Assembly: GCA_031270845.1 (NCBI GenBank)
Contig: JAISXF010000095.1
Location: 1-36,126 of the forward strand
Direction of reading: 5' to 3'
Length of the DNA: 36,126 nucleotides
Source of the DNA: Prevotellaceae bacterium
GTDB taxonomy: Bacteria; Bacteroidota; Bacteroidia; Bacteroidales; UBA932
Shown: one piece after another, positions 2,525-36,126 of the stretch
Layout: every line of letters starts with the position of its first letter
Numbering within the stretch: position 1 is the stretch's first letter
The notes under the pieces: model-generated
Seen by the model: only the letters and a program-made list of their open reading frames with translations
What the model was told of the DNA's origin: nothing
Database searches by the model: none
Made by a program: the position numbers and the translations under genes

Positions 2525-2588
2525 ATAAGCCGTCCGTAATTGATAATGGATAATCCGTAATTCGTAATTCGTAATTCGTAATTAATTA
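2525..2588 (-). repeat. ATTACGA heptamer array after the 222-aa gene
   Basis: Read on the minus strand, the TAA stop of the 222-aa gene opens a run of TTACGAATTACGA units that then degenerates into GGATTATCC-like copies. Four near-perfect units are visible. Confidence 0.85.
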
Positions 2589-3254
2589 CGGGATGATTGC
2601 GCTCAGAATTTCCGACCACGGGCCTTTTTTGCTGCTGGTGTTGACCCACCGGAGGGCAAAATAAATGGTTTTGCCGCGCTGGTCGTTCTCGAAGATAAGG
2701 GTGTAGGGCGAATTGGTATCGACGTCGGAGTGCCTCAAATCCTCCCACCGCACAACCGGCGTGTCGCTGAGCAGCCATACGATTTCGGCGCCGTGCTGTC
2801 CTTCGGGTTTGCCTTTTTTGTGGCTGCCGCCGCGTTTAAAGAAGTGAATGGTTATCCGCCCGATAACCGATGTGTCGATGTCAAAATCGGGCGACTCGGT
2901 AGCTACCGGCGCTTCGGTGTGCTCGTCCGGTATAAGGGCGATGCCCATTGCTTCGAGGTCTATATCCGTTACTAACGGGTTGCCCTGCAAAGTCCGTATC
3001 AGCGGGCGGAGCACTGTTTCGTAGTCTTCCCGCGCGTTGTTTTTTTTAGCCGTGATAACGGTTGTGCGGGTATTGGGGTCTTCGTAGGCTGCCCAGGCCG
3101 CGTCCCATACGGCTTTTCGGGGCAGCACTTCGTCGTCGAGCCAGTCGGCGTCGAGCTTCCAGGCGGTGCGTTTTGTACTTGCCGTTGTAACGATAATTCT
3201 CTGACGGACATCAAAATCGGTGTCTTTTCTGGGGATACTGGTGTTCTCTGCCAT
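2586..3254 (-). CDS. Conserved Bacteroidetes protein of unknown function
   Basis: A 222-aa protein starting MAENTSIPRKDTDFD. It has no signal peptide and no membrane segment. The N-terminal two thirds look helical, with W-rich segments (WKLDADWLDDEVLPRK, WDAAWAAY) and a DYETVLRPLI stretch. The C-terminal third is beta-rich (IVWLLSDTP, YTLIFENDQRGKTIYFALRW, KKGPWSEILSAIIP) and resembles a fibronectin-like sandwich domain. I recognise the overall pattern from uncharacterised Bacteroidetes proteins but cannot name a function. Its ATG lies 5 nt after the stop of the repeat-bearing leader ORF, so ribosomes would have to reach it through that leader. The promoter is more than 400 bp upstream. Confidence 0.7.
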   Translation of the reverse strand: MAENTSIPRKDTDFDVRQRIIVTTASTKRTAWKLDADWLDDEVLPRKAVWDAAWAAYEDPNTRTTVITAKKNNAREDYETVLRPLIRTLQGNPLVTDIDLEAMGIALIPDEHTEAPVATESPDFDIDTSVIGRITIHFFKRGGSHKKGKPEGQHGAEIVWLLSDTPVVRWEDLRHSDVDTNSPYTLIFENDQRGKTIYFALRWVNTSSKKGPWSEILSAIIP

Positions 3255-3259
3255 AATGT

Positions 3260-3667
3260 TTATAATTTATTGTTAAGGATAAGGATAAATGATTTATGCG
3301 TCTTTTGCATACCCGCGTACGCGCGGCTCGTATTCGACGACGCGCGACGCGTATTCGACGACGCGCGACTCGTATTCGACGACGCGCGACTCGTATTCGA
3401 CGACGCGCGACTCGTATTCGACGACGCGCGGCTCGTATTCGACGACGCGCGACTCGTATTCGACGACGCGCGACTCGTATTCGACGACGCGCGGCTCGTA
3501 TTCAAATACGCGGAGCTCGTATTCAAATACGCGGCGATTAATGGTGTATCAAAAAGTGGGGGAGTGGCGGTAGCATTAGACGCTGAAAAACGCGCTGGAA
3601 CAGCGGGAGTTCCGGCGCTGGGGAAGGTTGTTCCCCGATGATGCGGTATATGATTTTTGCTAATCAT
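3260..3667 (-). CDS. Leader ORF A (MISKNHI type) with a 7-residue tandem repeat
   Basis: A possible 135-aa product starting MISKNHIPHHRG. The first about 38 residues match leader ORF B at 32799 (MISKNHIVNHRG, then FPSAGTPAVPA in both). The middle is ten copies of a 7-residue unit, consensus NTSRASS, encoded by a 21-bp DNA repeat. The end reads FILILNNKL. The ATG lies only 5 nt past a strong TAnnTTTG box, so any mRNA is nearly leaderless. The stop is 5 nt before the next start codon, which suggests translational coupling. An RNA-only leader is the alternative: the first 18 nt form an inverted repeat (ATGATT...AATCAT), and GGGGAA...TTCCCC follows. Whether it is translated is unproven. Confidence 0.5.
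   Translation of the reverse strand: MISKNHIPHHRGTTFPSAGTPAVPARFSASNATATPPLFDTPLIAAYLNTSSAYLNTSRASSNTSRASSNTSRASSNTSRASSNTSRASSNTSRASSNTSRASSNTRRASSNTSRAYAGMQKTHKSFILILNNKL
3322..3534 (-). repeat. 21-bp tandem repeat, 10 copies
   Basis: Ten head-to-tail units of 21 bp, consensus on the plus strand CTCGTATTCGACGACGCGCG plus A. The first units vary at one or two positions, and the last two replace CGACGA with CAAATA. The unit is a multiple of three, so changes in copy number would lengthen leader ORF A without shifting its frame. All six frames stay open across it, which explains several spurious ORFs. Confidence 0.95.
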
Positions 3668-8009: not shown

Positions 8010-11000
8010 CTAAATGCCAATTAAATATTCCTCGCCCATATTGTCTATTTCCTGCATGACGGCAAGCGTGTTTTTTATTGCGCTAATCATATCTTTGAGG
8101 TGTTTGAGGTCGGAAGCGTTGATCACAACGTTATCTTTAATTCTGTATTTGAGCCATTTTTCAATCGGTTTGTAGGAGCCGATTTCAAAGTTATAAACAT
8201 CGGAAGTTACAGGACGGATTTCTATTCTTTTATTGTGGGTTGTATAAATATTCAGCATATCATTATCATGGCTTATCTTTTCAATACTAAAATCGCCGTC
8301 AAAATTTGCGTCTATTTGAAGATTGAGATATTTTTTCATTCTGACAAATTCTCCGTTGTGCAGTACTGCTTCGTGATAAAAATCATCAACAGGCGTTTTC
8401 AACAAATGCAAATCAATGAGTGTTTGCCCCAGCGTTGCATATTTGTCGAATGTTTCTCTGTGGGTTGTCATGGGCACGGCGGGGAAATCGATTTTTAAAT
8501 ACTCAATGTATTTTTCTCTGTAAACTTTTGAATGCAAAACGCCATAGATGTAGGCGAGAATTTCTTCAGGCGTGGGCGCAGGGTCTAATTTTTTGAGGTA
8601 TCGTTTTATAAATTTTCCGGTGAAATTAGCAAACTTTTTTCCTTCGCCCTTAAAATTAAGTTGCAGCATTTCGGAATGTTCCAAGCCATTGTAGAAATAA
8701 AGCGGAGCTATGTAATTTTGTCCGCTGATTATGTGTAAATCAATATATTTATTAGTTACAAAAACATCCGTATAATTTTTATCTACATTTCTTGTAAAAC
8801 ACAATCCAATATTTTCTTTTTCAAAATGCTTAGCCGTTTCGTAGCGGGGATAGGCAATAAAACCCTTTGAGATTTTTGATAACGAAGTAATTCTGTTGTC
8901 AAAAGGGCGATATGCAATTTCTTGCGGATTATAATTTTTCAACAAATCTTCTTTTGCTTTTTCGATTGTCCAATCTCGGCTGTCGCAAACATTATATTTC
9001 GCGGCAATTTCCGGTTTATATAAAGGACGTATTGCCGCGGCAAGCTGTTCTAATGATTTTTGCGAATAATGCATAACGAAATCATCATTCTTTGTCTGTA
9101 TGCCGCTGTTGTAATAATTAAAAATGTCCGTCAATTTCCAAAACTTTTTATATTGTTTTATGTTTGAAAATTTTTTGTCGGTAAACCAAAAATAGGTACT
9201 ATCGGAAGGAATAATTTTCTTCCAGCGCACCGTTTTAAAATCGGTATTTTCAAGAAACGATAATTTTTCGGCGCGGGAAATTAAATGGTTATCAAGGGTA
9301 GAAAAATAAAATACAGGCTTCGGCGGCGCAACATCTTTATGTGGCCTGTTAAAATTCAACGTTTGCTGCTCTACTTTTGGAGTACTGGTTTTTTCTTTTT
9401 TATATTTTACAAAAAACGAAATGGAAACCCCCACCATAATATCAAAGATATTTTTGTCGGTGTCGCCTTTGCGGGTGTTGCCGTGCAAGTTGAGGATGTA
9501 AATTTCGTCGAACGTATTATACAGATGTTCGCGCATTTTGCGATGCGTAACACCGTCAAGAAAGCTGTTATTGGTAATTATGCCCACAATTCCATACCCG
9601 TTTTTTTCGATTTTGCGCTCGGCAAAACGAATAAATTTAATGTACAGGTCGTCCAGATTTATTTTTTTCTCATGGAGTCCGGCTTTGTATTTTTGCAATT
9701 CAGCGTCAATGATATCGCTCTTCTCCCGACTTCTCCCGTTAAAATACGGGGGATTTCCTATAATGGCTAAAAGCGCTTCCACATCTTTAACCGATTGTGA
9801 TTTTTCATATTCGCTTTTCAAATACGGCAGCAGTTCGCTGATTGAATGCTGACTGATGTCAAGCGTATTGGTGAGATAAATACCCAAACGCTCCTTTTTC
9901 CCCGGATCCAAAACAATGCCTCTGTCTTTTAAAAAGCGCGTTAAAATGGTGTGTGCAATTATGTAAGGCGTAAAAAGCAACTCAAAGCCGTAAATATCAT
10001 TTTGCACTTTTTGTTTTACGATGCGTTTATCTAAACTATCCGGATTTTCAGGAATAATTTGCTCTAAAATGGAATGAATAAAAGTGCCGGTACCACACGC
10101 GAAATCAAGGATTTTTATGCTTAAATCGCTGTAGCCATCCAAGTTGAATTTATCTTTTATTAAATAATTTACGCCGCGGGTAATGAAATCAGCCGCCTCC
10201 ACAGGCGTATAATAAACGCCGCCTTCCTTGCGGTTTTCCGTTCCGCGAAGCGTGTCGTATCGAGCCAAAAAGTCTTCATAAAGATAAACGGCAATGTTTT
10301 GCTTGCCGTTGTTGCTTTTCAAAAACTCATTGGTTATTGCCGCCGTATCAATCAAATTGATGTTCTTACCAATGTTGGTGAGCGCCATTTTTATTTCTGT
10401 AGGCAAATGCCGTATCAAATAGCCCTGTTCCAAAAATTCATAAAGCAGGCGGTATTCGTCGGGAATATTTTCAAGATAGTTCAGCTTTTGTTCGTTCAGC
10501 GGCTCGTTTGTATCCAAGCGTGCAAGCAGCAGCCCATAGACAAGCGACTGTGCGTAAACATCGCAAAAATCAGCTAATTCGTAATGGTAGTTAATGGATT
10601 TTTCATACTCGCCGAAAAGGCCTCTGAATTTGGTATAAAAACTTTCGGCGGCATTTGTTTTGTCTGCAATGTATTCGCGCAGCGCCACCGAATAATAGAA
10701 ACTTTGCGCGGCGAGCGCCGACACAAGCGTTTTTTTCGTTTTTATATAAGGATATTTGTACCCGTAAAAATCCTGCAAAAGGGTTACAAAATCAAGCCGT
10801 GCTTTGGTGTCGGCGGCAAGCGTAATATCGTGCTGCTTTTTGCCTTCCTGCAACAGAATGAACCGCGTATAATTGGTTATGATTATATTTTCGCAGGTTT
10901 TGGAATACTTTTTAATTTGCGCGCTTTCAATTAATTTATCGAGATTAAACGACGGCTTTTTGCATTCGATAAAACCTATCAGGCTTTTGAAAAGAGAGTC

Positions 11001-11228
11001 GGCGTCATTCCACACGAAAAAGTCGGGCATACCGTCAATGTCAATGCCGCTGCGGCGGTCTTCCTGCACGAGGGACGTTTTGTTCAAAAAGGGGATTTGC
11101 AACGTATTGAAAAGCGTTTCGAGCGGCGTGCGATATTCTATCTCTTCGCCGTCGGGACGGGCTGCCAAACAGGCAAGATAGGCTTGTACCTGCGGTTCGA
11201 TGGTCGCTATTAAAGTTTCGTGCTGCAT
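8010..11228 (-). CDS. Single-chain restriction-modification enzyme, type IIG / ISP-like (N6-adenine methyltransferase)
   Basis: A 1072-aa protein that should both cut and methylate DNA. An N-terminal PD-(D/E)xK nuclease is visible: GIDIDGMPDFF (Asp69) and IGFIECKK (Glu88, Lys90). A helical region precedes the gamma-class N6-adenine methyltransferase core, with GGVYYTP (336-342), the SAM-binding DFACGTGTF (375-383) and catalytic NPPY (492-495). The C-terminal half resembles the type ISP specificity domain, with IAYRPFDNR and a later GLCFTRN. There are no separate R, M or S genes nearby, as expected for a single-chain enzyme. No helicase block is visible between nuclease and methyltransferase, so type IIG is more likely than classical type ISP. 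All catalytic residues are present. It occupies the place upstream of rplC where rpsJ is normally found. The target sequence cannot be read from the protein. Confidence 0.9.
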   Translation of the reverse strand: MQHETLIATIEPQVQAYLACLAARPDGEEIEYRTPLETLFNTLQIPFLNKTSLVQEDRRSGIDIDGMPDFFVWNDADSLFKSLIGFIECKKPSFNLDKLIESAQIKKYSKTCENIIITNYTRFILLQEGKKQHDITLAADTKARLDFVTLLQDFYGYKYPYIKTKKTLVSALAAQSFYYSVALREYIADKTNAAESFYTKFRGLFGEYEKSINYHYELADFCDVYAQSLVYGLLLARLDTNEPLNEQKLNYLENIPDEYRLLYEFLEQGYLIRHLPTEIKMALTNIGKNINLIDTAAITNEFLKSNNGKQNIAVYLYEDFLARYDTLRGTENRKEGGVYYTPVEAADFITRGVNYLIKDKFNLDGYSDLSIKILDFACGTGTFIHSILEQIIPENPDSLDKRIVKQKVQNDIYGFELLFTPYIIAHTILTRFLKDRGIVLDPGKKERLGIYLTNTLDISQHSISELLPYLKSEYEKSQSVKDVEALLAIIGNPPYFNGRSREKSDIIDAELQKYKAGLHEKKINLDDLYIKFIRFAERKIEKNGYGIVGIITNNSFLDGVTHRKMREHLYNTFDEIYILNLHGNTRKGDTDKNIFDIMVGVSISFFVKYKKEKTSTPKVEQQTLNFNRPHKDVAPPKPVFYFSTLDNHLISRAEKLSFLENTDFKTVRWKKIIPSDSTYFWFTDKKFSNIKQYKKFWKLTDIFNYYNSGIQTKNDDFVMHYSQKSLEQLAAAIRPLYKPEIAAKYNVCDSRDWTIEKAKEDLLKNYNPQEIAYRPFDNRITSLSKISKGFIAYPRYETAKHFEKENIGLCFTRNVDKNYTDVFVTNKYIDLHIISGQNYIAPLYFYNGLEHSEMLQLNFKGEGKKFANFTGKFIKRYLKKLDPAPTPEEILAYIYGVLHSKVYREKYIEYLKIDFPAVPMTTHRETFDKYATLGQTLIDLHLLKTPVDDFYHEAVLHNGEFVRMKKYLNLQIDANFDGDFSIEKISHDNDMLNIYTTHNKRIEIRPVTSDVYNFEIGSYKPIEKWLKYRIKDNVVINASDLKHLKDMISAIKNTLAVMQEIDNMGEEYLIGI

Positions 11229-11245: not shown

Positions 11246-11253
11246 CAAAGGTA
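11246..11253 (-). promoter_or_regulatory. -7 box of the restriction-modification gene
   Basis: TACCTTTG on the minus strand, 17 nt before the ATG. The upstream promoter region is made of ATTACGA-type repeats (11258-11275), so the repeat may supply or replace the -33 element. Confidence 0.75.
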
Positions 11254-11420: not shown

Positions 11421-11473
11421 AAAATAGAGAACAGGCACGAAAATTATTTTATCGAAGGAAAAAACGAAAAAAA

Positions 11474-11697
11474 CTCTCCAGAGATAAAAATTATCTCTGG
11501 AGAAATAATTTCTATCTCTGGAGAAATAACACTATCTCTTGAGAGATAATTTTTATCTCTTGAGAAATAATTTTTATCTCTCAAGAGATAATTTCTTCTT
11601 CTTCAAAAAATAATTTTTATCTCTCTACAGATAACATTATCTCTCCAGAGATAATTTTTATCTCTGGAGAAATAAAAATTATCTCTGGAGAAGATTT
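11474..11697. repeat. Palindromic array with 20-21 bp period (ATCTCTsGAGA type)
   Basis: Copies of ATCTCT followed by TGAGAGAT, GGAGA or CAAGAGAT recur at 11493, 11514, 11534, 11555, 11576, 11619, 11639, 11660 and 11681, that is every 20-21 bp with one double step. A/T tracts lie between them. Each core is a near-palindrome, and the spacers are also nearly palindromic. A cleaner form of the same array starts at 36054. Confidence 0.85.
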
Positions 11698-20901: not shown

Positions 20902-21264
20902 TTAAAGATGAATATTTATGCCATTTTGGCAGAGTATAGAATATTTTATGCTATTTTGACAGGAAAGTACCTTCTGCCGGTCGGCAGAACCTGCTTTTCG
21001 ACCCAAAAGTACCTTCTGCCGGTCGGCAGAACCTATTTTTCGACCCAAATATACCTTCTGCCGGTCGGCAGAACCTACTTTTCGACCCAAAAGCGCCTTC
21101 TGCCGACCGGCAGAACCTATATTTGGGTCGAAAAGCCCCTTTTGCCGGTATTTTGGGGTTGGTTGCCCCTTGCCGGCGAGGAAAATACTACCGCTTCCAC
21201 CCCGCCCGCAAGCCGCGCCGGTATGTTTCCTTGTGTCTGTTATACCTGTATCAATCTCTTTCAT
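20902..21264 (-). CDS. Leader ORF C with a 14-residue tandem repeat
   Basis: A possible 120-aa product starting MKEIDTGITDTRKH. It contains about four copies of a 14-residue unit, consensus GSADRQKVLLGRKV, encoded by a 42-bp hairpin repeat. The ATG lies 19 nt after a TATCTTTG box with an A-rich stretch just before it, as usual for Bacteroidetes starts. The stop is 13 nt before the DUF6261 start. It has no sequence similarity to leader A, but the layout is the same: promoter, short ORF with in-frame tandem repeat, then a conserved protein. It may be a translated coupling peptide or only a structured leader. Confidence 0.45.
   Translation of the reverse strand: MKEIDTGITDTRKHTGAACGRGGSGSIFLAGKGQPTPKYRQKGLFDPNIGSAGRQKALLGRKVGSADRQKVYLGRKIGSADRQKVLLGRKAGSADRQKVLSCQNSIKYSILCQNGINIHL
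20971..21140 (-). repeat. 42-bp hairpin tandem array, last copy inverted
   Basis: TTCTGCCGGTCGGCAGAA palindromes begin at 20972, 21014 and 21056, exactly 42 bp apart, with TTTTCGACCCAAA between. The fourth (21098) has the loop reversed (ACC instead of GTC) and is followed by TTTGGGTCGAAAA, the reverse complement of the spacer, so the final unit is inverted. Spacers are conserved, which rules out CRISPR. Confidence 0.93.
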
Positions 21265-26720: not shown

Positions 26721-28607
26721 TTATTGATTTATTCCTTCATTGGCCCAGGCCAGAAACGCCTCCGCGCTTGCTAACCCCAGCCCCTGTTTCTGTATCTCGC
26801 CGTCCGCCGTGATGATGGCAAAGTAGGGGCTGGCAACGGTTTTAAACGTCTCCATCTGATAGGCGCGGTTGCGCTTGCCGATGGTTTTATAGTCCGCCGT
26901 TTGCTCTTCGGGCGGCAGGTCGGTATTTTCGTCGTAATATAAACTGACCCATACAAAGCGGTCGTTAATTAACTCGACAACACGCGGGTCTTTGAACGTC
27001 GAGGATTCCATCTTTTTGCAATTGACGCAGCCATGCCCCGTGAAATCCACCAGCACCGGTCTGTTCAGCGTTTTGGCACAATCCAGCGCCTGCTGCAAAT
27101 CAAAATAGCCGTTGATGCCGGCGGGGGTGTGCATCTTTGTGCCGGCGTATTTGGGCGGGTTGCCGCAGGGCGTTTCCTGCGGGATGGCAATAGCCGGCGT
27201 ATGTGGTGCGCCGCTGAGCGGCAGCGCCGGTTTTGTAGCCGCCGGCAGGAAGGGGTCAACGGCGTTCAGCTCCCCGCCCAGCAGACCCGGCAGCAGGTAG
27301 CCGGCAAAGGTGAACGCCGCAATCGCCAGCATCAACCGCCCGACGCCTGTCCGGGGCGTTTCGCTGTCGTGCGGCAGTTTTATCTTTCCTAAAATATAAC
27401 ACCCAAGCAGTACGGATAACGTGAGCCAGAATGCCACCGCCACCTCGCGGGTAATCAGCTCCACGCCCAGCGATTGGCCGACCTGTGCCAGAAACTTCAC
27501 GCAAAACGCCAGCATAATAAAGGCAAAAACCACTTTCACGGCATTAAGCCACCCGCCCGACTTCGGCAGCCTCTTAAGCAGCGACGGAAACAGTACCAGC
27601 AGCACAAACGGCAGCGACATCGCCAGGCCAAAGAGCCCCATCCCGATAATCGGCTTAACAACCGATGCGCCCTGCGCTGCGGTCATCAGCAAACTGCCCA
27701 CAAAGGGGCCTGTGCAGGCAAAAGAAACGATAGCCAGCACTACGGCCATGAAAAACGAGGCAATATAACCGCCTTTATCGACCTGCCGGTCGGCGCGGTT
27801 GGCCAAGCCGGAAGGCAGGCGAAGCTCAAAGAGCCCGAAGAAGGACAGAGCAAAAACGATAAACAGCGCGGCGAACAGCAGGTTGGGAACCCAGTGCGTA
27901 CTAAGGATATTGGCAAACGCCGGCGTCTTAAACACCGCCACAATGGCGCCGGTGAGTGTATAGATCAGCGTAACGGAAAGCGTGAAAATAACGGCTTTCA
28001 TCAGGCTAACGTAGCGACTCGACGAGCCGCTCATAAAGAAACTGACCGTCATCGGGATCATCGGGAATATGCAGGGCATTATAATCGCTCCGAGACCTGC
28101 CAGCAATGCGGCCAGCATAAAGAACCACAAACTTTCTTCCTCCGCCGCCGCAGCCCCGCCGCCCGGCAGGATGTCGATGGAAAACGCATATTCGTTGGGG
28201 ATACATTCGCGGTCGGAGCAGCTTTGGTACTCCAGCGCCCCGGCGACGGTAAACGCGGCGTCGGCGAGGGGTTTTATCGTTTGTATGAAAACGGCTTTCT
28301 CGTGAAAGTAATACACGGTGGTTTCGAATATGTCGTCGAATTTCTGCTTGGCCGGCGTTTCTTCGGTCAGCGCGCCGACAGGCTCGAAGGCGGCGTTGGC
28401 CGTAAAGCCGATAGTGGTCGGCATCGGGCCGTCCATTTTGTGTACCCCGTAGATGTACCACGCGGGCAGGATGTCGGCGGAGAACACGAGTTCTATAAGC
28501 CCGTCGCCCGACGGCCGCTGGGTTATCCGCCACGTAGCGGCATTGGTCTGTGCAAAGACCGACAGGCCGGCGGTAATAAATAAGAAAAATAATACTGTTC
28601 TTTTCAT
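26721..28607 (-). CDS. dsbD: Thiol:disulfide interchange protein DsbD
   Basis: A 628-aa inner-membrane reductant transporter that carries electrons from cytoplasmic thioredoxin to periplasmic partners. I chose the ATG at 28605-28607 (MKRTVLFFLFITAGLSVFAQ) for its signal peptide; the 12 codons upstream belong to a tRNA fragment. The N-terminal periplasmic domain has a Cys pair CSDREC (130, 135). The membrane domain (about 160-450) has the paired conserved Cys in IMPCIFPMIPMTVSFF (Cys179) and SFACTGPFVGSLL. The C-terminal thioredoxin-like domain has CVNC (527-530) in VDFTGHGCVNCKKME. All three redox centres are present. It is the first gene of a probable dsbD-eno-ribF unit. Confidence 0.95.
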   Translation of the reverse strand: MKRTVLFFLFITAGLSVFAQTNAATWRITQRPSGDGLIELVFSADILPAWYIYGVHKMDGPMPTTIGFTANAAFEPVGALTEETPAKQKFDDIFETTVYYFHEKAVFIQTIKPLADAAFTVAGALEYQSCSDRECIPNEYAFSIDILPGGGAAAAEEESLWFFMLAALLAGLGAIIMPCIFPMIPMTVSFFMSGSSSRYVSLMKAVIFTLSVTLIYTLTGAIVAVFKTPAFANILSTHWVPNLLFAALFIVFALSFFGLFELRLPSGLANRADRQVDKGGYIASFFMAVVLAIVSFACTGPFVGSLLMTAAQGASVVKPIIGMGLFGLAMSLPFVLLVLFPSLLKRLPKSGGWLNAVKVVFAFIMLAFCVKFLAQVGQSLGVELITREVAVAFWLTLSVLLGCYILGKIKLPHDSETPRTGVGRLMLAIAAFTFAGYLLPGLLGGELNAVDPFLPAATKPALPLSGAPHTPAIAIPQETPCGNPPKYAGTKMHTPAGINGYFDLQQALDCAKTLNRPVLVDFTGHGCVNCKKMESSTFKDPRVVELINDRFVWVSLYYDENTDLPPEEQTADYKTIGKRNRAYQMETFKTVASPYFAIITADGEIQKQGLGLASAEAFLAWANEGINQ

Positions 28608-28610
28608 GTT

Positions 28611-28665
28611 AGCGATTCGGAGGGACTCGAACGCACGACCCACAGCTTGGAAGGCGTCATCCCGT
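28611..28665 (-). pseudogene. 3' fragment of a tRNA gene, tRNA-Gly(TCC)-like
   Basis: On the minus strand, GACGCCTTCCAAGCTGTGG looks like the anticodon arm of tRNA-Gly with loop CTTCCAA. It is followed by GGTCGTGCGTTCGAGTCCC, a T-arm with an intact TTCGAGT loop, and by CCGAATCGCT as the 3' acceptor half. Both stems contain mismatches. No matching D-arm or 5' acceptor half is found upstream, so it cannot fold into a tRNA. It abuts the dsbD start codon and lies in its leader. Such 3' remnants are often left at integration sites. Confidence 0.55.
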
Positions 28666-28771
28666 ATTGTTTTGTAAAATTAATAATCAAAATAGTAACT
28701 GCATTTATTTTTTAACAAACATTCAACAAATGGTTCGGCTCCCCGCCGCATTCCCTTTATTAAAATCGCCG

Positions 28772-28779
28772 CAAAGGTA
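28772..28779 (-). promoter_or_regulatory. -7 box upstream of dsbD
   Basis: TACCTTTG on the minus strand, 164 nt before the dsbD ATG. The long leader includes the tRNA fragment. It is the only good box upstream of dsbD-eno-ribF. Confidence 0.6.
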
Positions 28780-28860
28780 ATACTTTTAAATGGATTCTCC
28801 TAAACAAAAAAGGGCTGTTGCCCATTGCGGCACGATGAGTTCAACGTCCCGCCGGGCGCT

Positions 28861-29799
28861 TCAGGCTTTGCGGGAGGGCGCTTCAGGCTTGCGTTTCCAT
28901 GTAATCTTTCCCGTTTTAATCTGTTCAAATCCTTTGCCGAAAACGCCCATCACGTTGGCTACGGAAATAAAAGCCTGCGGGTCGATTTCCTTGACGACGC
29001 GGAAAATGCTGTTGGCCTCGTTCTTCCGCGCCACGACAACAATCACCTTGCCTTCCTTTTTGGTGTACCAGCCCATCGAATCCATCACGGTAACGCCGCG
29101 CTGCAAGTCGCCCACTAACCGGTCGGCAATGGGTTCATAATGCGGCGAAAATACCATGATTTGCACCGATTGCCGGTTGCCCGAAATAACCAAATCTATC
29201 ACATACGAAAACGACACCATCTCGACATAGCCGTAAATCACATGCTCGAACGACCGGTCGGGCAACAGCAGGATAGAGCCGATAATAATCAGGTCGCAAA
29301 AAATGAACACGCGGCCGGGCGACGTATTTTTAAACTTCGACCAGATGATGGCAATAATATCCGTACCGCCGGTGCTGCCGCCCTGCATAAACACCATCCC
29401 GATGCCAAACCCGCTGGCCGTGCCGCCAATCAGGGCGTTGAGCAGGTTGTTGTCGTGAATAATCGCCTTCTCAATAAATTCGGGCGAAATCCATTCCGGC
29501 AGGAAATGAAACAGCAGCGCCGCCATGCCGATACCGAAAAGCGTTTTGAGGCCGAAGCCGCGCCCCAGAATGAGCATCCCGCCGGCGACAAGCCCGGCAT
29601 TAATGATAAGATAACTGTATTCGGTCGGGAACCCCGTGGCGTAGGTGATGATGGCGGCAATGCCAATAACGCCGCCGCCGGCAATCTGGTTCGGAATAAT
29701 GAAAACCACCCACCCCGCAGCATAGATAATCAGCCCGATGGTCATCAACAAATACGACCTCGTTTCCGAATAAATACGATGTTTTATACTGTTGTTCAT
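28861..29799 (-). CDS. YitT family membrane protein (DUF161 + DUF2179)
   Basis: A 312-aa protein counted from MNNSIKHRIYSETRSYLL. The upstream 33 in-frame codons overlap the divergent rpoN promoter and start and were rejected. Five or six membrane segments span about 20-200, with the typical NQIAGGGVIGIAAIITY and GGTASGFGIGMVFMQGGSTGGTDIIA motifs. The cytoplasmic C-terminal DUF2179 domain follows (IMVFSPHYEPIADRL to ISVANVMGVFGKGFE). It may be a transporter, but its substrate is unknown. The 3' end holds a direct duplication of GGGCGCTTCAGGCTT (28855-28893), which places the stop. No heptamer array follows. Confidence 0.9.
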   Translation of the reverse strand: MNNSIKHRIYSETRSYLLMTIGLIIYAAGWVVFIIPNQIAGGGVIGIAAIITYATGFPTEYSYLIINAGLVAGGMLILGRGFGLKTLFGIGMAALLFHFLPEWISPEFIEKAIIHDNNLLNALIGGTASGFGIGMVFMQGGSTGGTDIIAIIWSKFKNTSPGRVFIFCDLIIIGSILLLPDRSFEHVIYGYVEMVSFSYVIDLVISGNRQSVQIMVFSPHYEPIADRLVGDLQRGVTVMDSMGWYTKKEGKVIVVVARKNEANSIFRVVKEIDPQAFISVANVMGVFGKGFEQIKTGKITWKRKPEAPSRKA

Positions 29800-29822
29800 T
29801 GAAAAGTCTGTTAAATTTTGTG

Positions 29823-29830
29823 CAAAGATA
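29823..29830 (-). promoter_or_regulatory. -7 box of the YitT gene
   Basis: TATCTTTG on the minus strand, 23 nt before the ATG. It is divergent from the rpoN promoter; the two -7 boxes are 32 bp apart. Confidence 0.75.
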
Positions 29831-29846
29831 GGGAAAGTTCGACAAC

Positions 29847-29870
29847 CGTCAATTGTTTTTTGTACCTTTG
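29847..29870 (+). promoter_or_regulatory. Promoter of rpoN with CGTCAAT element
   Basis: TACCTTTG (29863-29870) with CGTCAAT exactly 16 nt before it (29847-29853) and a T-rich spacer, closely matching the Fur-gene promoter at 19022. The rpoN ATG follows after 7 nt. Confidence 0.75.
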
Positions 29871-29877
29871 CGGGGCT

Positions 29878-31263
29878 ATGCTTAAACAGACCACACAATT
29901 AAAGTTACAGCAAAAACTCTCGCCGCTGCAAATCCAGACTATCAAACTGCTGGAACTGCCGGTTATGCAGTTCGACCAGCGTATCAAAGAGGAACTCGAA
30001 GAGAACCCGGCGCTCGACGAAGAGCCGTCCTCGGACGAGGAATATACCCCCGTCCCTGTAGCCGACGACGATACGCCGGCCTATAAATTATTTACACCCT
30101 CCTTTACGCCGCCGGTAAAGCCCGAATTTCCTACCTTATCGGTCAGGGAAAATTTTCGCCAGCAACTCGAAACACAGGTAGGATACAGCGGATTGAACGA
30201 GCACGAACGCGCCATTGCGGTCTTCCTTATCGGTAGTTTAGACGACGACGGCTACCTGCGCCGCGACCTTGCGTCGGTGGTTGATGACCTGGCTTTCCGT
30301 TCGGGTATCGATGCAACCGTCGAAGAATTAGAAACAGTATTGTCCGTTATTCAGGATTTTGAACCGGTCGGGGTCGGCGCACGCAGTTTGCAGGAATGCC
30401 TGCTCATCCAGCTGCGCAAAAGCAACCCCAAAACCGCGCTGCAGTGTGTCGCCGAAATGATTGTACACGACTGCTTCGCCGATTTCGGAAAAAAACATTT
30501 TGACAAAATCAAAGCTAAAATCCAAATCGACGACTCCACGCTGAAGGCGGCGATGAACGAGATTGTGAAGCTCAATCCGCGTCCGGCGGGCAGCAGTGCT
30601 GACGCGTACCATGACCAGGCGCGGCAGATTGTCCCCGATTTCCTCCTCGAACCCGTCGATGGAGAGCTGCAACTGTCGCTGCTGCGATACAATATCCCGC
30701 AACTGCGCCTCAACCGGCGCTACGCACAACTCATCGGCAGCAAAGCCCCCGCTACGGCGCAAGGCCGCGCCGCCATGGCTTTTGTCCGGCAAAAGATGGA
30801 AGCTGCCGCGCGTTTTATTGAGGCCGTCAAGCAGCGGCAGCAGACTCTGCTCTCCACCATGCAGGCGATTATTAATTACCAGCATGACTATTTTGTCGAG
30901 GGCGACGAAACCTGCCTGCGGCCTATGGCGCTCCGGCACATTGCCGATGCTTCGGGCTATGATATATCGACCGTTTCGCGCGTCGTGAACAGTAAGTTTA
31001 TCCAGACGCACTTTGGTATCTTTCCGTTAAAATATTTCTTTTCCGAAGGGATGAAAAACACTTCGGGCGAAGAAGTTTCGACCCGCGAAATAAAAAATAT
31101 CCTGCAGGAAAGCATCGACCGGGAAGATAAAAAGAAACCGCTGCCCGATAAAAACCTGGTGGAAGTCCTCCGCCAGCGCGGGTACGCCGTTGCCCGCCGC
31201 ACGGTAGCCAAATACCGCGAACAGTTGAATATTCCGGTTGCACGATTGCGAAAAGAATTGTAA
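29878..31263 (+). CDS. rpoN: RNA polymerase sigma-54 factor
   Basis: A 461-aa sigma-54. The start is MLKQTTQLKLQQKLSPLQIQ, the usual Bacteroidetes N-terminus; the open frame reaches 20 codons further back, through the promoter. Region I (Q-rich activator-interacting) is followed by the core-binding domain (ENFRQQLETQVGY, LIGSLDDDGYLRRDL, GVGARSLQECLLIQL). The DNA-binding part has MALRHIADASGYDISTVSRV and an RpoN box reading ARRTVAKYRE near the C-terminus. Complete and apparently functional. It needs AAA+ activators, none of which is in this window. upp follows 39 bp downstream. Confidence 0.97.
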   Translation: MLKQTTQLKLQQKLSPLQIQTIKLLELPVMQFDQRIKEELEENPALDEEPSSDEEYTPVPVADDDTPAYKLFTPSFTPPVKPEFPTLSVRENFRQQLETQVGYSGLNEHERAIAVFLIGSLDDDGYLRRDLASVVDDLAFRSGIDATVEELETVLSVIQDFEPVGVGARSLQECLLIQLRKSNPKTALQCVAEMIVHDCFADFGKKHFDKIKAKIQIDDSTLKAAMNEIVKLNPRPAGSSADAYHDQARQIVPDFLLEPVDGELQLSLLRYNIPQLRLNRRYAQLIGSKAPATAQGRAAMAFVRQKMEAAARFIEAVKQRQQTLLSTMQAIINYQHDYFVEGDETCLRPMALRHIADASGYDISTVSRVVNSKFIQTHFGIFPLKYFFSEGMKNTSGEEVSTREIKNILQESIDREDKKKPLPDKNLVEVLRQRGYAVARRTVAKYREQLNIPVARLRKEL

Positions 31264-31268
31264 CTTTG
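31261..31268 (+). promoter_or_regulatory. Probable internal promoter for upp
   Basis: TAACTTTG fits TAnnTTTG and overlaps the rpoN stop codon. It lies 34 nt before the upp ATG. The upstream element is weak, so this is tentative. Confidence 0.5.
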
Positions 31269-31302
31269 CCGTCTAATATCTAATATCTAAAGTCTAAAAA
31301 AA

Positions 31303-32004
31303 ATGTCATCAAACAAAACAACCCAATCGAATCAGGCAGCCGGCTTTGCGGCGCGGCTGCATGTGCTGTCTGACACGCCGTCGGTATTCAACGGCTTCCT
31401 TGCCGAAATGCGCGACAGCGTTGTCCAGAAAGACAGTATGCGCTTCCGCCGGAATCTGGAACGCACCGGCGAAATCTTTGCGTATGAAATCAGCAAAACG
31501 CTTGCTTTTACGACGCAGGAAGTAACCACCCCGCTGGGCATCTCGTCGATTGCCTTACCGAACGACAATATCGTTCTGGCCACAATCCTGCGTGCCGGGC
31601 TGCCGTTGCATCAAGGATTCCTGAACTATTTCGACAAGGCCGAAAATGCCTTTATCGCCGCCTATCGCAAATACGGGAAGGACTACAAATTCTCCATTCA
31701 ATTAGAATACCTCACCGCCCCCACCATCACCGGTAAGGTGTTGATATTAATGGATCCGATGTTAGCCACCGGCGAGTCGATGCACCTTACCTACCACGCA
31801 CTGATGGAAAAAGGACAGCCGCTGCACACGCATATCGTGGCGCCCATTGCCAGCAAGTACGGGGTGGAGTACATTCACAAAAATTTATCACAAAAAGACA
31901 TCACCCTTTGGGTCGGCGCTATTGACGAGGAGCTCACCACCAAAGCCTACATCGTTCCCGGCCTGGGCGATGCCGGTGATTTGGCCTATGGCGAAAAACT
32001 GTAA
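31303..32004 (+). CDS. upp: Uracil phosphoribosyltransferase
   Basis: A 233-aa type I phosphoribosyltransferase that salvages uracil to UMP with PRPP. The N-terminal extension is longer than in E. coli, as common in Bacteroidetes. ATILRAGLPLHQGFLNYF and the PRPP loop VLILMDPMLATGES (about 145-158) are clear, and the C-terminal uracil-binding part contains IVPGLGDAGDLAYGEKL. Start MSSNKTTQSNQ is the first ATG after the -7 box. Confidence 0.95.
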   Translation: MSSNKTTQSNQAAGFAARLHVLSDTPSVFNGFLAEMRDSVVQKDSMRFRRNLERTGEIFAYEISKTLAFTTQEVTTPLGISSIALPNDNIVLATILRAGLPLHQGFLNYFDKAENAFIAAYRKYGKDYKFSIQLEYLTAPTITGKVLILMDPMLATGESMHLTYHALMEKGQPLHTHIVAPIASKYGVEYIHKNLSQKDITLWVGAIDEELTTKAYIVPGLGDAGDLAYGEKL

Positions 32005-32051
32005 GCCTTATTATTTATCTGTATAATTATAAAAATAAAATACGAAAAAAT

Positions 32052-32729
32052 ATGCCTTCCATTTACATTATTGCCCTTTTAGTGATGCTCGCGAGCTGGC
32101 TGGTGCAGGCGGGTCTCAAGAGCCGTTTTGCAAAATATTCCAAAATACGCCTTCCCAATGGCATGACGGGCAAACAGGTTGCCGAAAAGATGCTGCATGA
32201 TAACGGTATTTATGACGTCCGTGTTGAGTCGGTTCCGGGGAAGCTCACCGACCATTACAATCCGGCGACCAAAATCGTCAATCTCAGCGAGCCGGTGTAT
32301 GCTACCAGCAGCGTAGCCGCCGCGGCTGTCGCCGCCCACGAGTGCGGCCATGCCGTGCAACATGCCCGGGCCTATCATTTTTTACAGATGCGGTCGAGCC
32401 TGGTGCCGGTTGTCAGTTTTGCCTCCCGGTGGGTTACGTGGATACTGATAGCCGGTATTATTTTCCTGCAATCCTTTCCGGAGTTGCTGTTGGCCGGCAT
32501 CGGGCTGTTTGCCGTAACAACGCTCTTCAGTTTCATCACCTTGCCGGTCGAAATCAACGCCAGTACGCGGGCGGTGGCGTGGCTCAACGAGGCCGGCATT
32601 ACCGACTTTGAAACGCACCCGCAAGCGAAAAGCGCGCTCCGCTGGGCGGCCTATACTTACGTAGTTGCGGCGCTGGGTTCGCTGGCGACGCTGTTGTATT
32701 ATATTATGATTTATATGAGGCGGCGGTAA
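32052..32729 (+). CDS. Neutral zinc metallopeptidase, YugP type
   Basis: A 225-aa membrane protein of the Zn_peptidase_2 family (Bacillus YugP). There is an N-terminal membrane segment (2-20), then KIRLPNGMTGKQVAEKML and LSEPVYATSSVAAAAVAAHE. The zinc motif HECGH is at 96-100. Two central membrane helices (about 118-165) and a C-terminal one follow. The late FDTHP-like pattern (ITDFETHPQAKSALRWAAYTYV) is typical. The role is unknown; the active site would lie at the membrane. It follows upp by 47 bp and probably shares its transcript. No heptamer array follows it. Confidence 0.9.
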   Translation: MPSIYIIALLVMLASWLVQAGLKSRFAKYSKIRLPNGMTGKQVAEKMLHDNGIYDVRVESVPGKLTDHYNPATKIVNLSEPVYATSSVAAAAVAAHECGHAVQHARAYHFLQMRSSLVPVVSFASRWVTWILIAGIIFLQSFPELLLAGIGLFAVTTLFSFITLPVEINASTRAVAWLNEAGITDFETHPQAKSALRWAAYTYVVAALGSLATLLYYIMIYMRRR

Positions 32730-32763
32730 GAACCCTTCCGGCAGGAAAAAATTCCAAACAGGA

Positions 32764-32793
32764 GTTGTATTTTCAAAAAAAGCACTACCTTTG
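32764..32793 (+). promoter_or_regulatory. Promoter for leader B and LRR gene 2
   Basis: TTGT (32764-32767), an 18-bp A-rich spacer and TACCTTTG (32786-32793). From TTTTCAAAAAAAG through the box it is nearly identical to the promoter of leader A, and the leader ATG is again 5 nt downstream. Confidence 0.85.
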
Positions 32794-32798
32794 CACCC

Positions 32799-32933
32799 AT
32801 GATTAGCAAAAATCATATAGTAAATCATCGGGGAAAGGCCTTCCCGAGCGCCGGAACTCCCGCAGTGCCCGCGTGTTTGTGGGCATTTAATATTACCCCC
32901 CCCCCCCCCCCCAACTTTTTACTTAACAGTTAA
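32799..32933 (+). CDS. Leader ORF B (MISKNHI type), interrupted after a 17-C tract
   Basis: As sequenced it encodes 44 residues: MISKNHIVNHRGKAFPSAG, then TPAVPACLWAFNIT, a proline run from the C tract and FLLNS. It is homologous to leader A in promoter, start, the first 38 codons or so, and the ACC..CCCC..ACTTTTT context. If the tract had 16 or 19 C instead of 17, the frame would stay open without a stop to TAA at 33073-33075, 7 nt before the ATG of the LRR gene, giving about 91 residues. This matches the geometry of leaders A and C. The present length looks like an OFF state, unless it is a sequencing error. Confidence 0.55.
   Translation: MISKNHIVNHRGKAFPSAGTPAVPACLWAFNITPPPPPNFLLNS
32896..32912 (+). 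repeat. Poly-C tract, 17 C
   Basis: An uninterrupted run of 17 C inside leader ORF B. Tracts of this length are prone to slipped-strand mispairing. In leader A the same position reads ACCGCCACTCCCCCA, so the pure C run seems derived by mutation or expansion. Confidence 0.95.
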
Positions 32934-32982
32934 TTACAGCGCTTTTGCCAAAGCACAGACGCTCTCTATAACAAACGGTATT

Positions 32983-33032
32983 GCCTGTACCGAACCGTAC
33001 AGGCTCTGTGCGTTTCCGCATTTGGGAACGCA
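32983..33032 (+). promoter_or_regulatory. Two tandem hairpins in the leader of LRR gene 2
   Basis: GCCTGTAC/GTACAGGC (32983-33004) forms a perfect 8-bp stem. TGCGTTTCC/GGGAACGCA (33009-33032) forms a 9-bp stem with one G-T pair. They are 4 nt apart, with 6-nt loops and no T-run, so they resemble regulatory RNA structures more than terminators. Confidence 0.6.
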
Positions 33033-33082
33033 ACCTTCGTTTTCGGATCATTCATTAAAAATTCGTTTAAATTAATATCGTA

Positions 33083-35959
33083 ATGAAGCATTTCTTTTTA
33101 ATCGCAATCTTATTTTTCTCCCTCTCAGCATGGGGGCAAACGCGCGTTGTCGAAATCGAACAGCTCTCAACCGCCTACGGCGCCGCGCCGACCGTTACCT
33201 TCCGCGTCTATTGGGACACCGCGCCCGTTGGCGCCAAACATTTGGACAGCGTATGGGTGTTTGTCGATTTCCAGCGCATCAACGCCGGCAATGTGTTGGA
33301 CAGCTGGGCGCCGGCCACCCTCACCACCCCCGCCACCGTGAGCGCCGGCACGCCGAGTTACCCCTTCCAGCCTACGGCGCGCGGCTTCTACCTGCGCGGT
33401 AATGCCGCCGGCGCATTCAGTTCTACCGTAACAGTAGCCCTGCAAAACCTGGCCGACGCCAAATTCAACTGGTGCGCCTACGCTACCGACTACCCGCCCA
33501 ACGCCACCCTCGGCGCCGCGCACTACGACCTGCACGGCACCCCGCCCTTTGAGATTAACGGCTCTTCTTTAGGCTCCGGTGTCCGCACCTTCTCCGGCGA
33601 ATGTATCACAACCCTGACCGACGCCACCGGCTGCCCGGGCTTAATCCCCACGCCGCCCACCGCGCCGATACTCACCGCCTCGCCCGACAGTATTTGCACC
33701 GGCGACACCACAACCCTCGCCGCCACCGCCGCCGATGCCGCTTTCTACAGCTTCGATGACGGCGCCACATGGATAGCCACGAACGCCGCCACCTTCTCGC
33801 CAACGGCCACAACCGAATACCCCGTTGCCATAAAGAACGCCGCCGGCTGTAGCGTAACCGGCGCGCCCGTTACCGTTACGGTGGTGCCGCCACCCGTGCC
33901 TGTATTTATTAACCCGCCGGCGACCTACTGCGCCGACAGCACGTTTGACCTCACCGCCTCCGCAGGCGCGGGCAGCTCGTACTGCTTTACGCAGACGTAC
34001 ACCGGCGCCTCGCACAACCCCTACCTTTCGGGGAATGATACCGACGCCGGCGTCGATTGCGACTTCCCGACCGTTGAATACTGCTCGCCTTCCGGCGACA
34101 GCGTCTTCACGGTGCGTATGCCCGAAAGCGGCAGCGTAACCATCTGCGTGCGGGCATGGAACGCCTTCGGTTGCCCGGCCGACACGTGCATTACCATAAG
34201 CGCCACGCCGCTGCCGGCCTTCGCATTAATTTCAACACAAGGCACCGACGCCCAAACTATTTCATTAGAGCAGCCCGTAACTACCATTCGATACACGACC
34301 ACCGACGCCTATAGCGCCGCCACCGCCGTAACAGTTACCGGCCTGCCCGCCGGCCTGAGCTACACATGGAATGCCCCGAATATAGAAATTACCGGCACGG
34401 CAGCCGCCTCGGCCACCGTCGGCGCACATTCCTACACCGTAACGGCCGCCGGTAACTGCGGCACCACCACCACGCAGGGCGTCATTACCATTGCCGGCAA
34501 CTTCTTTAGCATGGTTACGACCAACCCCGACAGCGTGTATTTCTCTGTAAACTTCACCGGTACCCTATACATTGACTGGGGCGACGGTACAAGCACCTAC
34601 ACCACCGGCAACGGCCAGAAAAAGCATTTCTATACCGACGGCCTCACGGCGCATACCGTTACCGCGCAGGCGCCGGTAATTACGTATTTGCATTGTATCA
34701 GTAATAAATTAACCGCGTTAGACGTAACGCAGGCGCCCGCGCTAACTTCTTTGCTGTGTTACGACAACCTTCTAACCGCATTGGATGTAAGGCAGAATAC
34801 CGCAGCTACCTATTTGAATTGCCACACCAATCAATTGTCGGCATTGGACGTAAGTAAAAATACCGCGCTACTCGTTTTGGCTTGTAACAACAATCAATTG
34901 TCGGCATTAGACGTAAGGCAGAATACCGCCGCTACTTATTTGGATTGTAACACCAATCAATTATCGGCATTAGACGTAAGGCAGAATCCCGCGCTACGCA
35001 CGTTGAATTGTGGCAGCAATAAACTGCCCTCATTGGACGTAACGCAATGCACTTTGCTAACTTCTTTGCGTTGTGACGACAATCTCTTGACCTCATTAGA
35101 CGTAACGCAGCATCCCGCGCTACTCTATTTGCACTGTGCCCACAATCTCTTGCCCTCATTGGACATAAGTCGGAATACCGCCGCTACCTATTTGGATTGC
35201 AGCTACAATCTCCTGTCCTCATTGGTCGTAACGCCACATTCCGCGCTAAGGACATTGTATTGCTCCAGCAATAAATTGACGACATTGAACGTAACGCAGA
35301 ATACCTTGCTAAGGGATTTGCAGTGTTCCATCAACCAATTGTCCGAATTGGACGTAACGCAAAATACCGACTTACGCGGGTTGCAGTGTAACAGTAATCA
35401 ATTGAAAGTATTAAACCTGTGGGAGAATACCCTCTTAACCGGGCTGCAATGCAACAGTAACATATTGGACTCATTAGACCTGCAACGGAACCCCCTGTTA
35501 AATGCGGTGCAATGTAGGGGCAATCGACTGACCAAATTAAACATAACGACCTGTACCGTGCTCACACAATTGTATTGCGACGGTAATTTATTGCCGCAAT
35601 TAGACGTAAGCAACAATACCAATTTAATCATATTGTCCTTTAATTCTAATCTAATAAGTTCTATGGACCTCAGCGCCAATACCGCGCTAACCTATTTGAG
35701 TCTTAGCGGCAATCAATTTACGGAATTAGATCTGACGGGCAATCCCGCGCTTACAACGGTGGCCTGTAGAAGCAACCTCTTCACCGCCACGGCGCTCAAT
35801 GACCTCTTCCATACCCTGCACAGCAACCCGCTACCTGACAAAACGGTTTATATCTACAACAACCCGAAGTCGAACCCGGGCGCAGGCACCGGCACCGCCG
35901 GCTGCGACCAAAGCATCGCTACCGGCAGAGGCTGGGTGGTAAATACAGCAGCCTATTAA
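33083..35959 (+). CDS. Secreted surface protein with Ig/PKD-like domains and Cys-ladder LRRs (LRR2)
   Basis: A 958-aa paralogue of LRR1. MKHFFLIAILFFSLSAWGQ is a clear signal peptide. The N-terminal 500 residues align with LRR1 almost throughout (KFNWCAYATDYPPNATLG, YDLHGTPPF, FYSFDDGATWIATNAATF). The WGDGT PKD-like domain is at about 500-530. About 17 LRRs of 21 residues follow, consensus LDVxQNTxLxxLxCxxNxL, nearly all with the ladder Cys. It ends in GRGWVVNTAAY without a visible type IX sorting domain. The repeat region is clearly more AT-rich than the N-terminal part. Expression may depend on leader B, whose ON form would end 7 nt upstream. The stop opens an AACGATG array. Confidence 0.9.
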   Translation: MKHFFLIAILFFSLSAWGQTRVVEIEQLSTAYGAAPTVTFRVYWDTAPVGAKHLDSVWVFVDFQRINAGNVLDSWAPATLTTPATVSAGTPSYPFQPTARGFYLRGNAAGAFSSTVTVALQNLADAKFNWCAYATDYPPNATLGAAHYDLHGTPPFEINGSSLGSGVRTFSGECITTLTDATGCPGLIPTPPTAPILTASPDSICTGDTTTLAATAADAAFYSFDDGATWIATNAATFSPTATTEYPVAIKNAAGCSVTGAPVTVTVVPPPVPVFINPPATYCADSTFDLTASAGAGSSYCFTQTYTGASHNPYLSGNDTDAGVDCDFPTVEYCSPSGDSVFTVRMPESGSVTICVRAWNAFGCPADTCITISATPLPAFALISTQGTDAQTISLEQPVTTIRYTTTDAYSAATAVTVTGLPAGLSYTWNAPNIEITGTAAASATVGAHSYTVTAAGNCGTTTTQGVITIAGNFFSMVTTNPDSVYFSVNFTGTLYIDWGDGTSTYTTGNGQKKHFYTDGLTAHTVTAQAPVITYLHCISNKLTALDVTQAPALTSLLCYDNLLTALDVRQNTAATYLNCHTNQLSALDVSKNTALLVLACNNNQLSALDVRQNTAATYLDCNTNQLSALDVRQNPALRTLNCGSNKLPSLDVTQCTLLTSLRCDDNLLTSLDVTQHPALLYLHCAHNLLPSLDISRNTAATYLDCSYNLLSSLVVTPHSALRTLYCSSNKLTTLNVTQNTLLRDLQCSINQLSELDVTQNTDLRGLQCNSNQLKVLNLWENTLLTGLQCNSNILDSLDLQRNPLLNAVQCRGNRLTKLNITTCTVLTQLYCDGNLLPQLDVSNNTNLIILSFNSNLISSMDLSANTALTYLSLSGNQFTELDLTGNPALTTVACRSNLFTATALNDLFHTLHSNPLPDKTVYIYNNPKSNPGAGTGTAGCDQSIATGRGWVVNTAAY

Positions 35960-36008
35960 CGAACGATGAACGATGAACGATGAACGATGAACGATGAACG
36001 ATGAACGA
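35958..36008 (+). repeat. AACGATG heptamer array after LRR gene 2
   Basis: From the TAA stop, CGAACGATGAACGATGAACG and further units give about six perfect 7-bp copies in the sense direction of the gene. This is the cleanest array in the window and the same family as after the BACON gene. Confidence 0.95.
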
Positions 36009-36053
36009 ATCACAAAAATCCGATGAATCACCATTCAAATAGCTGCGCTGTGC

Positions 36054-36126
36054 CTCGAGAGATAGAAATTATCTCTCGAGAGATGGTTTCTATCCCTCGA
36101 GAGATAATTTTCATCTCTCGAGAGAT
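36054..36126. repeat. 21-bp palindromic array, ATCTCTCGAGAGAT, cut by the window end
   Basis: The 14-bp palindrome ATCTCTCGAGAGAT starts at 36071 and 36113, with a one-base variant at 36092 and a partial copy ending at 36063. The spacing is exactly 21 bp, with 7-bp A/T-rich spacers. It continues beyond the window. It is the same class as 11474-11697. Confidence 0.92.

Follow-up and report, generated by a model that had tools for sequence, protein, structure and literature searches.

Most of what is known of phase variation in the Bacteroidales concerns DNA inversion, and the capsule and SusC/D systems of Bacteroides have invertible promoters that are switched by DNA inversion between inverted repeats. 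The passages of a recent review that are reached by a term search describe phase variation in Bacteroides only as inversion-type or uncharacterised. A switch driven by a repeat in a leader peptide has been proven in Streptococcus gallolyticus: depending on the repeat in the pil1 leader peptide, ribosomes either do or do not arrive at a hairpin terminator and unfold it (Danne et al. 2014, PMC3894217). An earlier note on the DNA examined here had set its layout apart from classic phase variation; the view that the layout is without precedent is not supported, given this streptococcal system (PMC3894217). Control through the mRNA leader takes a different form in the RepG/tlpB system of Helicobacter pylori, where a variable homopolymer (a G tract) in the leader controls the downstream gene (PMC8295292), and in the flagellar switch of Clostridioides difficile, where the OFF state is reached via Rho-dependent premature termination in the 5' leader (PMC7446863).

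The locus compared with these systems lies in a 36,126-nt stretch of DNA from a Prevotellaceae bacterium (the window). A run of 17 C (C17) is located within leader B, a short ORF upstream of a gene for a leucine-rich-repeat protein, LRR2 (Table 1). The ATG of this leader (32799 to 32801) is situated 5 nt beyond the -7 box. As in pil1, the repeat is present in a promoter-proximal ORF and the point of termination depends on phase, with stops at 32931 for the assembled 17 C, at 32924 for 18 C and at 33073 (TAA, 33073 to 33075) for 16 or 19 C, the last of these being followed by the LRR2 ATG at 33083. The spacing between the -7 box and the leader start, the count of 17 C, the stops for 17 C and for 16 or 19 C and the distance to LRR2 had been given in the earlier note and were correct on re-reading of the sequence, as were the distances at which leaders A and C end before their own genes. 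A terminator-like hairpin (33009 to 33032) lies 3' of both OFF stops and 5' of the ON stop. This anatomy matches that of the proven pil1 switch, and hence slippage of the C tract is proposed to switch translation through a folded region.

Other described modes of phase variation were rejected for leader B. Classic intragenic SSR phase variation was discounted because the tract lies outside the LRR2 coding sequence; LRR2 has its own ATG and an N terminus that, as judged by eye, resembles a signal peptide, and it is not fused to leader B, the C tract being in a separate ORF. A promoter-spacer SSR was rejected because the tract, which begins 102 nt beyond the -7 box, is neither between nor beside promoter elements. 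A scan of positions 28600 to 36126 detected no inverted repeats flanking the leader B promoter at 32786, and an invertible promoter was rejected on the absence of such a pair within this region.

Table 1. Coordinates of the leaders, their component features and the LRR2 gene in the window
Feature	Position	Strand	Basis
Leader A, same leader family, ends 5 nt before its gene	3260..3667	-	81% DNA identity over 5' part
Leader C, different translated leader, ends 13 nt before DUF6261 gene	20902..21264	-	Sequence, Pfam
-7 box TACCTTTG, Bacteroidota-type promoter	32786..32793	+	Direct reading; most relatives have same box upstream
Leader ORF B, 44 codons with assembled 17 C (OFF phase)	32799..32933	+	Sequence
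C17 tract, proline-run codons	32896..32912	+	Sequence
Open frame with 16 or 19 C, ends 7 nt before LRR2	32914..33075	+	Frame reading
TAA shutting 18 C frame (frame open in most relatives)	32924..32926	+	Frame reading
Conserved block CAGTTAATTACAGCG, common to leaders	32927..32941	+	Alignment A1; model R1 matches
TAA shutting 17 C frame	32931..32933	+	Frame reading
Hairpin GCCTGTAC-CGAACC-GTACAGGC within leader B	32983..33004	+	RNA fold
Terminator-like hairpin TGCGTTTCCGCATTTGGGAACGCA, T-rich tail	33009..33032	+	RNA fold; consensus match only
LRR2, 958-aa leucine-rich-repeat protein	33083..35959	+	Pfam LRR_4, E 4.5e-12

The layout shared by the leaders consisted, in order, of a -7 box, an ATG, about 100 nt of ORF, the C tract, a gate and the next gene, the gate being a segment that closes two frames within about 30 nt of the tract and leaves the third open. 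The number of runs of at least 17 C or G expected in the window was about 5e-6. One frame remained open for at least 150 nt of the 170-nt leader B in 27% of Markov shuffles (P = 0.27), so that the open frame of leader B by itself constitutes weak evidence, and the full gate, with the other two frames shut by +18, was reproduced in 1.5% of shuffles (P = 0.015). Judged on the window alone, the case for a phase switch is weak, and the real support comes from the leader family.

The simple picture originally drawn for leader B did not hold, as the frame used by most relatives has been lost through interruption by the TAA at 32924 and a different frame is open instead. Leader B on its own could be a decayed copy that has lost the ability to switch while the family mechanism is valid elsewhere, an explanation that we regard as unlikely but as deserving some weight. 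The broken frame, the ease with which the alternative open frame arises by chance and the lack of a 21-nt repeat array in this leader all speak for decay; set against them are the infrequency of the full gate among shuffles, the length of the tract, which at 17 C is prone to slippage, the course of the open frame past the terminator-like hairpin to a point just before LRR2, and the presence in the same genome of related leaders (L050 and L055) that precede similar genes.

Copies of the leader DNA were found elsewhere in the same genome, on contigs C21 (leader A), C71, C14, C12 and C23, with a looser type on C18 and several further copies cut by contig ends. The genus was sampled by fetching C tracts of at least 9 nt from nine genomes of this termite-gut genus, and about 40 leaders of the common layout were present among these tracts. 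In a pattern scan across GTDB, most occurrences of the element were in MAGs titled Prevotellaceae that, on our reading of their isolate names, appear to come from termite-gut metagenomes; others were in Lentimicrobiaceae and other Bacteroidales. A sequence-only model (R1) had matches in 11 of 26 genera sampled from the family and, elsewhere in the order, in another five. The genomes compared were assemblies, mostly MAGs, in which several leaders were cut by contig ends and some leader genes were called from sequence only. The C17 of leader B seems to represent a single copy of a recurring switch carried by many gut Bacteroidales.

The post-tract block has the genus consensus AACTTTCTGAnnAnCAGTTAATTACAGCG and typically closes two frames, leaving the third without a stop. 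The frame preceding the tract was fixed relative to the tract in 31 of 42 leaders (P = 1e-7; this and the other P values for leaders are somewhat optimistic because paralogous leaders were treated as independent) and, after clustering, in 26 of 37 (P = 5e-6). The gate was observed in 31 of 43 leaders, compared to an expectation of 2.6, and in 3 of 29 control C tracts outside leaders. Following the gate, the third frame extended for 80 to 600 nt and ended near the next gene; the distance left between the open frame and the gene start was no more than 60 nt in 45 of 66 leaders, as against 14 expected. As the search model spans only the first post-tract stretch, the frame was measured beyond +66; here the chosen frame was open for a median of 224 nt more versus 54 nt for the others (P = 4.9e-10), and the difference held separately inside and outside the genus. 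The expectation that homologues preserve an open frame after the tract was thereby borne out, with one frame being kept open across leaders.

Long C runs permit slippage. In an anchor-based count, tracts of at least 9 C were distributed about equally between the three phases (7 ON, 8 and 9), and a longest-frame count on a stricter subset gave 9 ON of 42 leaders. Near-identical paralogues differed in tract length, with 13 and 14 C in L177 and L178, 14 and 12 C in L116 and L120, and 17 and 15 C in L152 and L154. The even phases and the length differences between paralogues fit a freely slipping tract and do not fit a programmed shift.

A non-genetic alternative is that the ribosome or RNA polymerase slips on the tract, such that every template yields some open-frame leader; the tract would then set a level or sense a condition (proline, EF-P or tRNA modification) and would not be an inherited switch. 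Consistent with this alternative, CCC CCC C is a shifty proline run, one more C was needed in 21 of the 42 clear leaders, and short or interrupted tracts favoured the ON phase or a phase that would be mended by a -1 shift. A programmed shift, however, needs a fixed direction, whereas the longer tracts were spread over all phases and paralogues differed in phase; programmed ribosomal frameshifting was rejected on this spread, and we consider non-genetic slippage in general to be quite improbable.

Several observations were made on tracts of other kinds. Where the tracts of genus leaders were short or interrupted (L186, L189 and L247 to L270), they tended to be ON or to lack one C and were almost never in the third phase, a bias for which -1 frameshifting is a possible cause. 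The prediction that every tract of this short or interrupted kind is locked ON did not hold among the leaders examined. Four divergent leaders of genome G008 shared both a tract of exactly 8 C and its phase, and in L257 of this genome, which precedes a gene similar to that of leader A, the tract was interrupted and in frame. A second leader type (L056) was represented by a pair at G000:C18:20094 and 23776, with 15 and 14 C, before genes 3.7 kb apart that by eye resemble a flavoprotein gene and a methyltransferase gene; an extra T before the tract offsets the extra C, and both leaders reach their longest frame. A C13 tract at the 3' end of a gene judged by eye to encode a nucleotidyltransferase (L161; G006:C101:1125-1134, minus strand) is not part of a leader and is possibly a separate switch. 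In G005:C31:15001-15108 (L179 and L180), two copies of the 5' part of a leader meet head-to-head at a G/C-rich joint, an arrangement that reflects either a rearrangement or an assembly artefact. Loss of mismatch repair was rejected as the cause of slippage, MutS being present in all 9 of the 9 genomes.

Homopolymers are error-prone, and the C counts could in principle be errors of assembly around a tract that is really fixed in length. Some copies are indeed broken off by a contig end close to the tract (C49, C104, L125 and L142), but a one-base mistake cannot make a conserved gate or produce long tracts across many independent genomes, and we attach hardly any probability to this explanation. 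The exact C count in leader B could still be an assembly error.

The RNA between the tract and the gene was more folded than shuffled sequences, with mean z scores of -3.3 for the genus, -3.4 elsewhere and -3.9 for the window, part of this folding arising because the repeat units are palindromic. Stems of at least 8 bp were about tenfold enriched in the same interval. A T-tailed hairpin was found after the tract in about 24% of leaders; with such a structure in only about a quarter, a classical terminator is not general, and a universal post-tract terminator was rejected. An intrinsic terminator directly preceding the tract was likewise rejected as a universal feature, as a hairpin with a T run was present in many leaders but not all; a pre-tract T run of 5 or longer was observed in 43 of 99. 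Rho is encoded in the source genome. In the G558 leaders L304 to L313, the C tract lies between inverted repeats, TTGATTATCAAG and CTTGATAATCAA, which would put the C run in a hairpin loop.

Folding of the leader and the presence of Rho are also compatible with the tract acting as RNA, either through pairing with a G-rich small RNA or through Rho loading, in which case the reading frame would be irrelevant. Conservation of the DNA around the tract beyond the codons points in the same direction. Without translation, however, the long open frame kept up to the gene lacks an explanation, and an action of the tract as RNA is in our view very improbable.

Repeat-driven phase variation of a translated leader was the reading that we preferred for the family, with a probability of about 0.7 on the evidence of sequence. 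Replication slippage in the C tract would change the phase in which ribosomes leave it. In the open phase, ribosomes would cross the folded leader and unfold its hairpins, premature termination of either the intrinsic or the Rho-dependent kind would be prevented, and the ribosomes would end up beside the gene start, turning the gene ON. In the other two phases, ribosomes would halt within about 30 nt, allowing the leader to fold or terminate and leaving the gene OFF or low. The barrier that translation overcomes may be a terminator, Rho or occlusion of the start. Leader B would be OFF at 17 C and ON at 16 or 19 C, with a corresponding effect predicted for LRR2, and leaders A and C, which have no long tract, would be permanently ON. 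The strict translational coupling put forward in the earlier note was not supported, since the switch could equally arise from the melting of leader structure, from antitermination or from a relief of Rho polarity. The switch proposed there stands on the retained frame and on the occurrence of all tract phases, and falls short on coupling, novelty of layout and the simple view of leader B.

The peptide encoded after the tract showed little sign of constraint. In four divergent groups of leaders, dN/dS of the post-tract frame was 0.61 to 0.78, and only two of these groups had their lowest value in that frame; a fifth group, a nearly identical pair, had a post-tract value of 1.8, and pre-tract values were mixed. 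Strong purifying selection on the post-tract peptide was rejected, as the contrasts between frames were weak and inconsistent, and any constraint on the peptide is probably weak. In G558 and G438, another frame was usually open, resulting in a different peptide, and the gate was still present. Repeats within leaders had periods of 21 or 42 nt and were in the open frame, except for a few at the leader end, whereas repeats outside leaders had mixed periods of 7, 8, 9, 15 and others, including 21. Leader A has no long C tract, contains in-frame 21-nt repeats and reads through in the conserved frame, and leader C has no C tract and carries in-frame 42-nt palindromic repeats. Arrays of palindromic 21- or 42-nt units were also observed at 11457 to 11676 and 36048 to 36126 of the window and in most leaders after the tract, the sequence differing site by site. 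Comparison of the leader peptide with Pfam and NCBIfam gave no match, and the Rfam covariance models gave only a sub-threshold snoRNA match (E 1.9). With the peptide only weakly conserved, translation itself seems to matter more than its product; together with the repeat periods and the changed frames, this weak conservation suggests that selection may act on being translated and not on the peptide.

The genes downstream of leaders were mostly surface genes, with targets including SusC/TonB receptors, lipoproteins, glycosyltransferases and a 220-aa family (lipoproteins and glycosyltransferases being assigned by eye). Members of this recurrent family of about 220 aa, such as that at 2586 to 3254 of the window (minus strand), have an N terminus like MNNRDFLPKNDNAFLNW, and no match to the family was found in Pfam or NCBIfam. 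The window also contains, at 8010 to 11228 on the minus strand, a gene for a 1,072-aa Type ISP restriction-modification-like protein (Type_ISP_C, Eco57I) with a -7 box at 11253.

Overall, comparison of the leaders establishes, as properties of the sequences, the gate, the retention of a frame, the free phase of the tract, the folded structure and the class of targets. Beyond this, we lean towards a generic, Bacteroidales-wide combination of gate and folded leader that is reused before many unrelated surface genes within a single genome, in which selection would keep the gate and not the peptide and slippage would generate random sets of surface proteins. If the proposed switch is correct, cells could randomly flip surface proteins on or off by gaining or losing a C, and the order would have, besides inversion, a large slippage-driven system for SusC transporters, lipoproteins, LRR proteins and glycosyltransferases. 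Because the tracts sit in unannotated leaders, such a switch would escape screens based on inversion as well as repeat screens centred on genes. A search of the open-access literature found no description of a comparable system in Bacteroidota. The leaders would also provide a natural assay of how leader translation controls downstream expression, and a mechanism so far isolated in Streptococcus would become a recurrent design.

Among known systems, the invertible promoters of the same order resemble the proposed switch in the random ON/OFF control of surface genes. The C. difficile flagellar switch similarly enforces its OFF state in the 5' leader and differs in relying on DNA inversion instead of slippage within an ORF. 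RepG acts on tlpB through graded pairing of a small RNA (PMC8295292), and not through a leader reading frame as proposed here. In the classic intragenic SSRs of Neisseria, Campylobacter and Helicobacter, the length of a homopolymer also sets the frame ahead of surface genes, but the tract is inside the controlled gene, whereas here it is in a separate leader ORF. The closest likeness is to pil1/pil3: in both systems the repeat lies inside a promoter-proximal leader ORF in which a change in the number of units shifts the frame, and a long leader passes a hairpin before surface genes while a short leader stops earlier. The pil1/pil3 repeats are GCAGA units at two pilus loci of one species, as opposed to a C tract in many leaders of many Bacteroidales; the pil1 intrinsic terminator is proven, whereas a T-tailed hairpin accompanies only a minority of the present leaders; and the open frame here, unlike that of pil1, usually runs to the gene start. 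The likeness is thus one of design, and no homology between the two systems is claimed.
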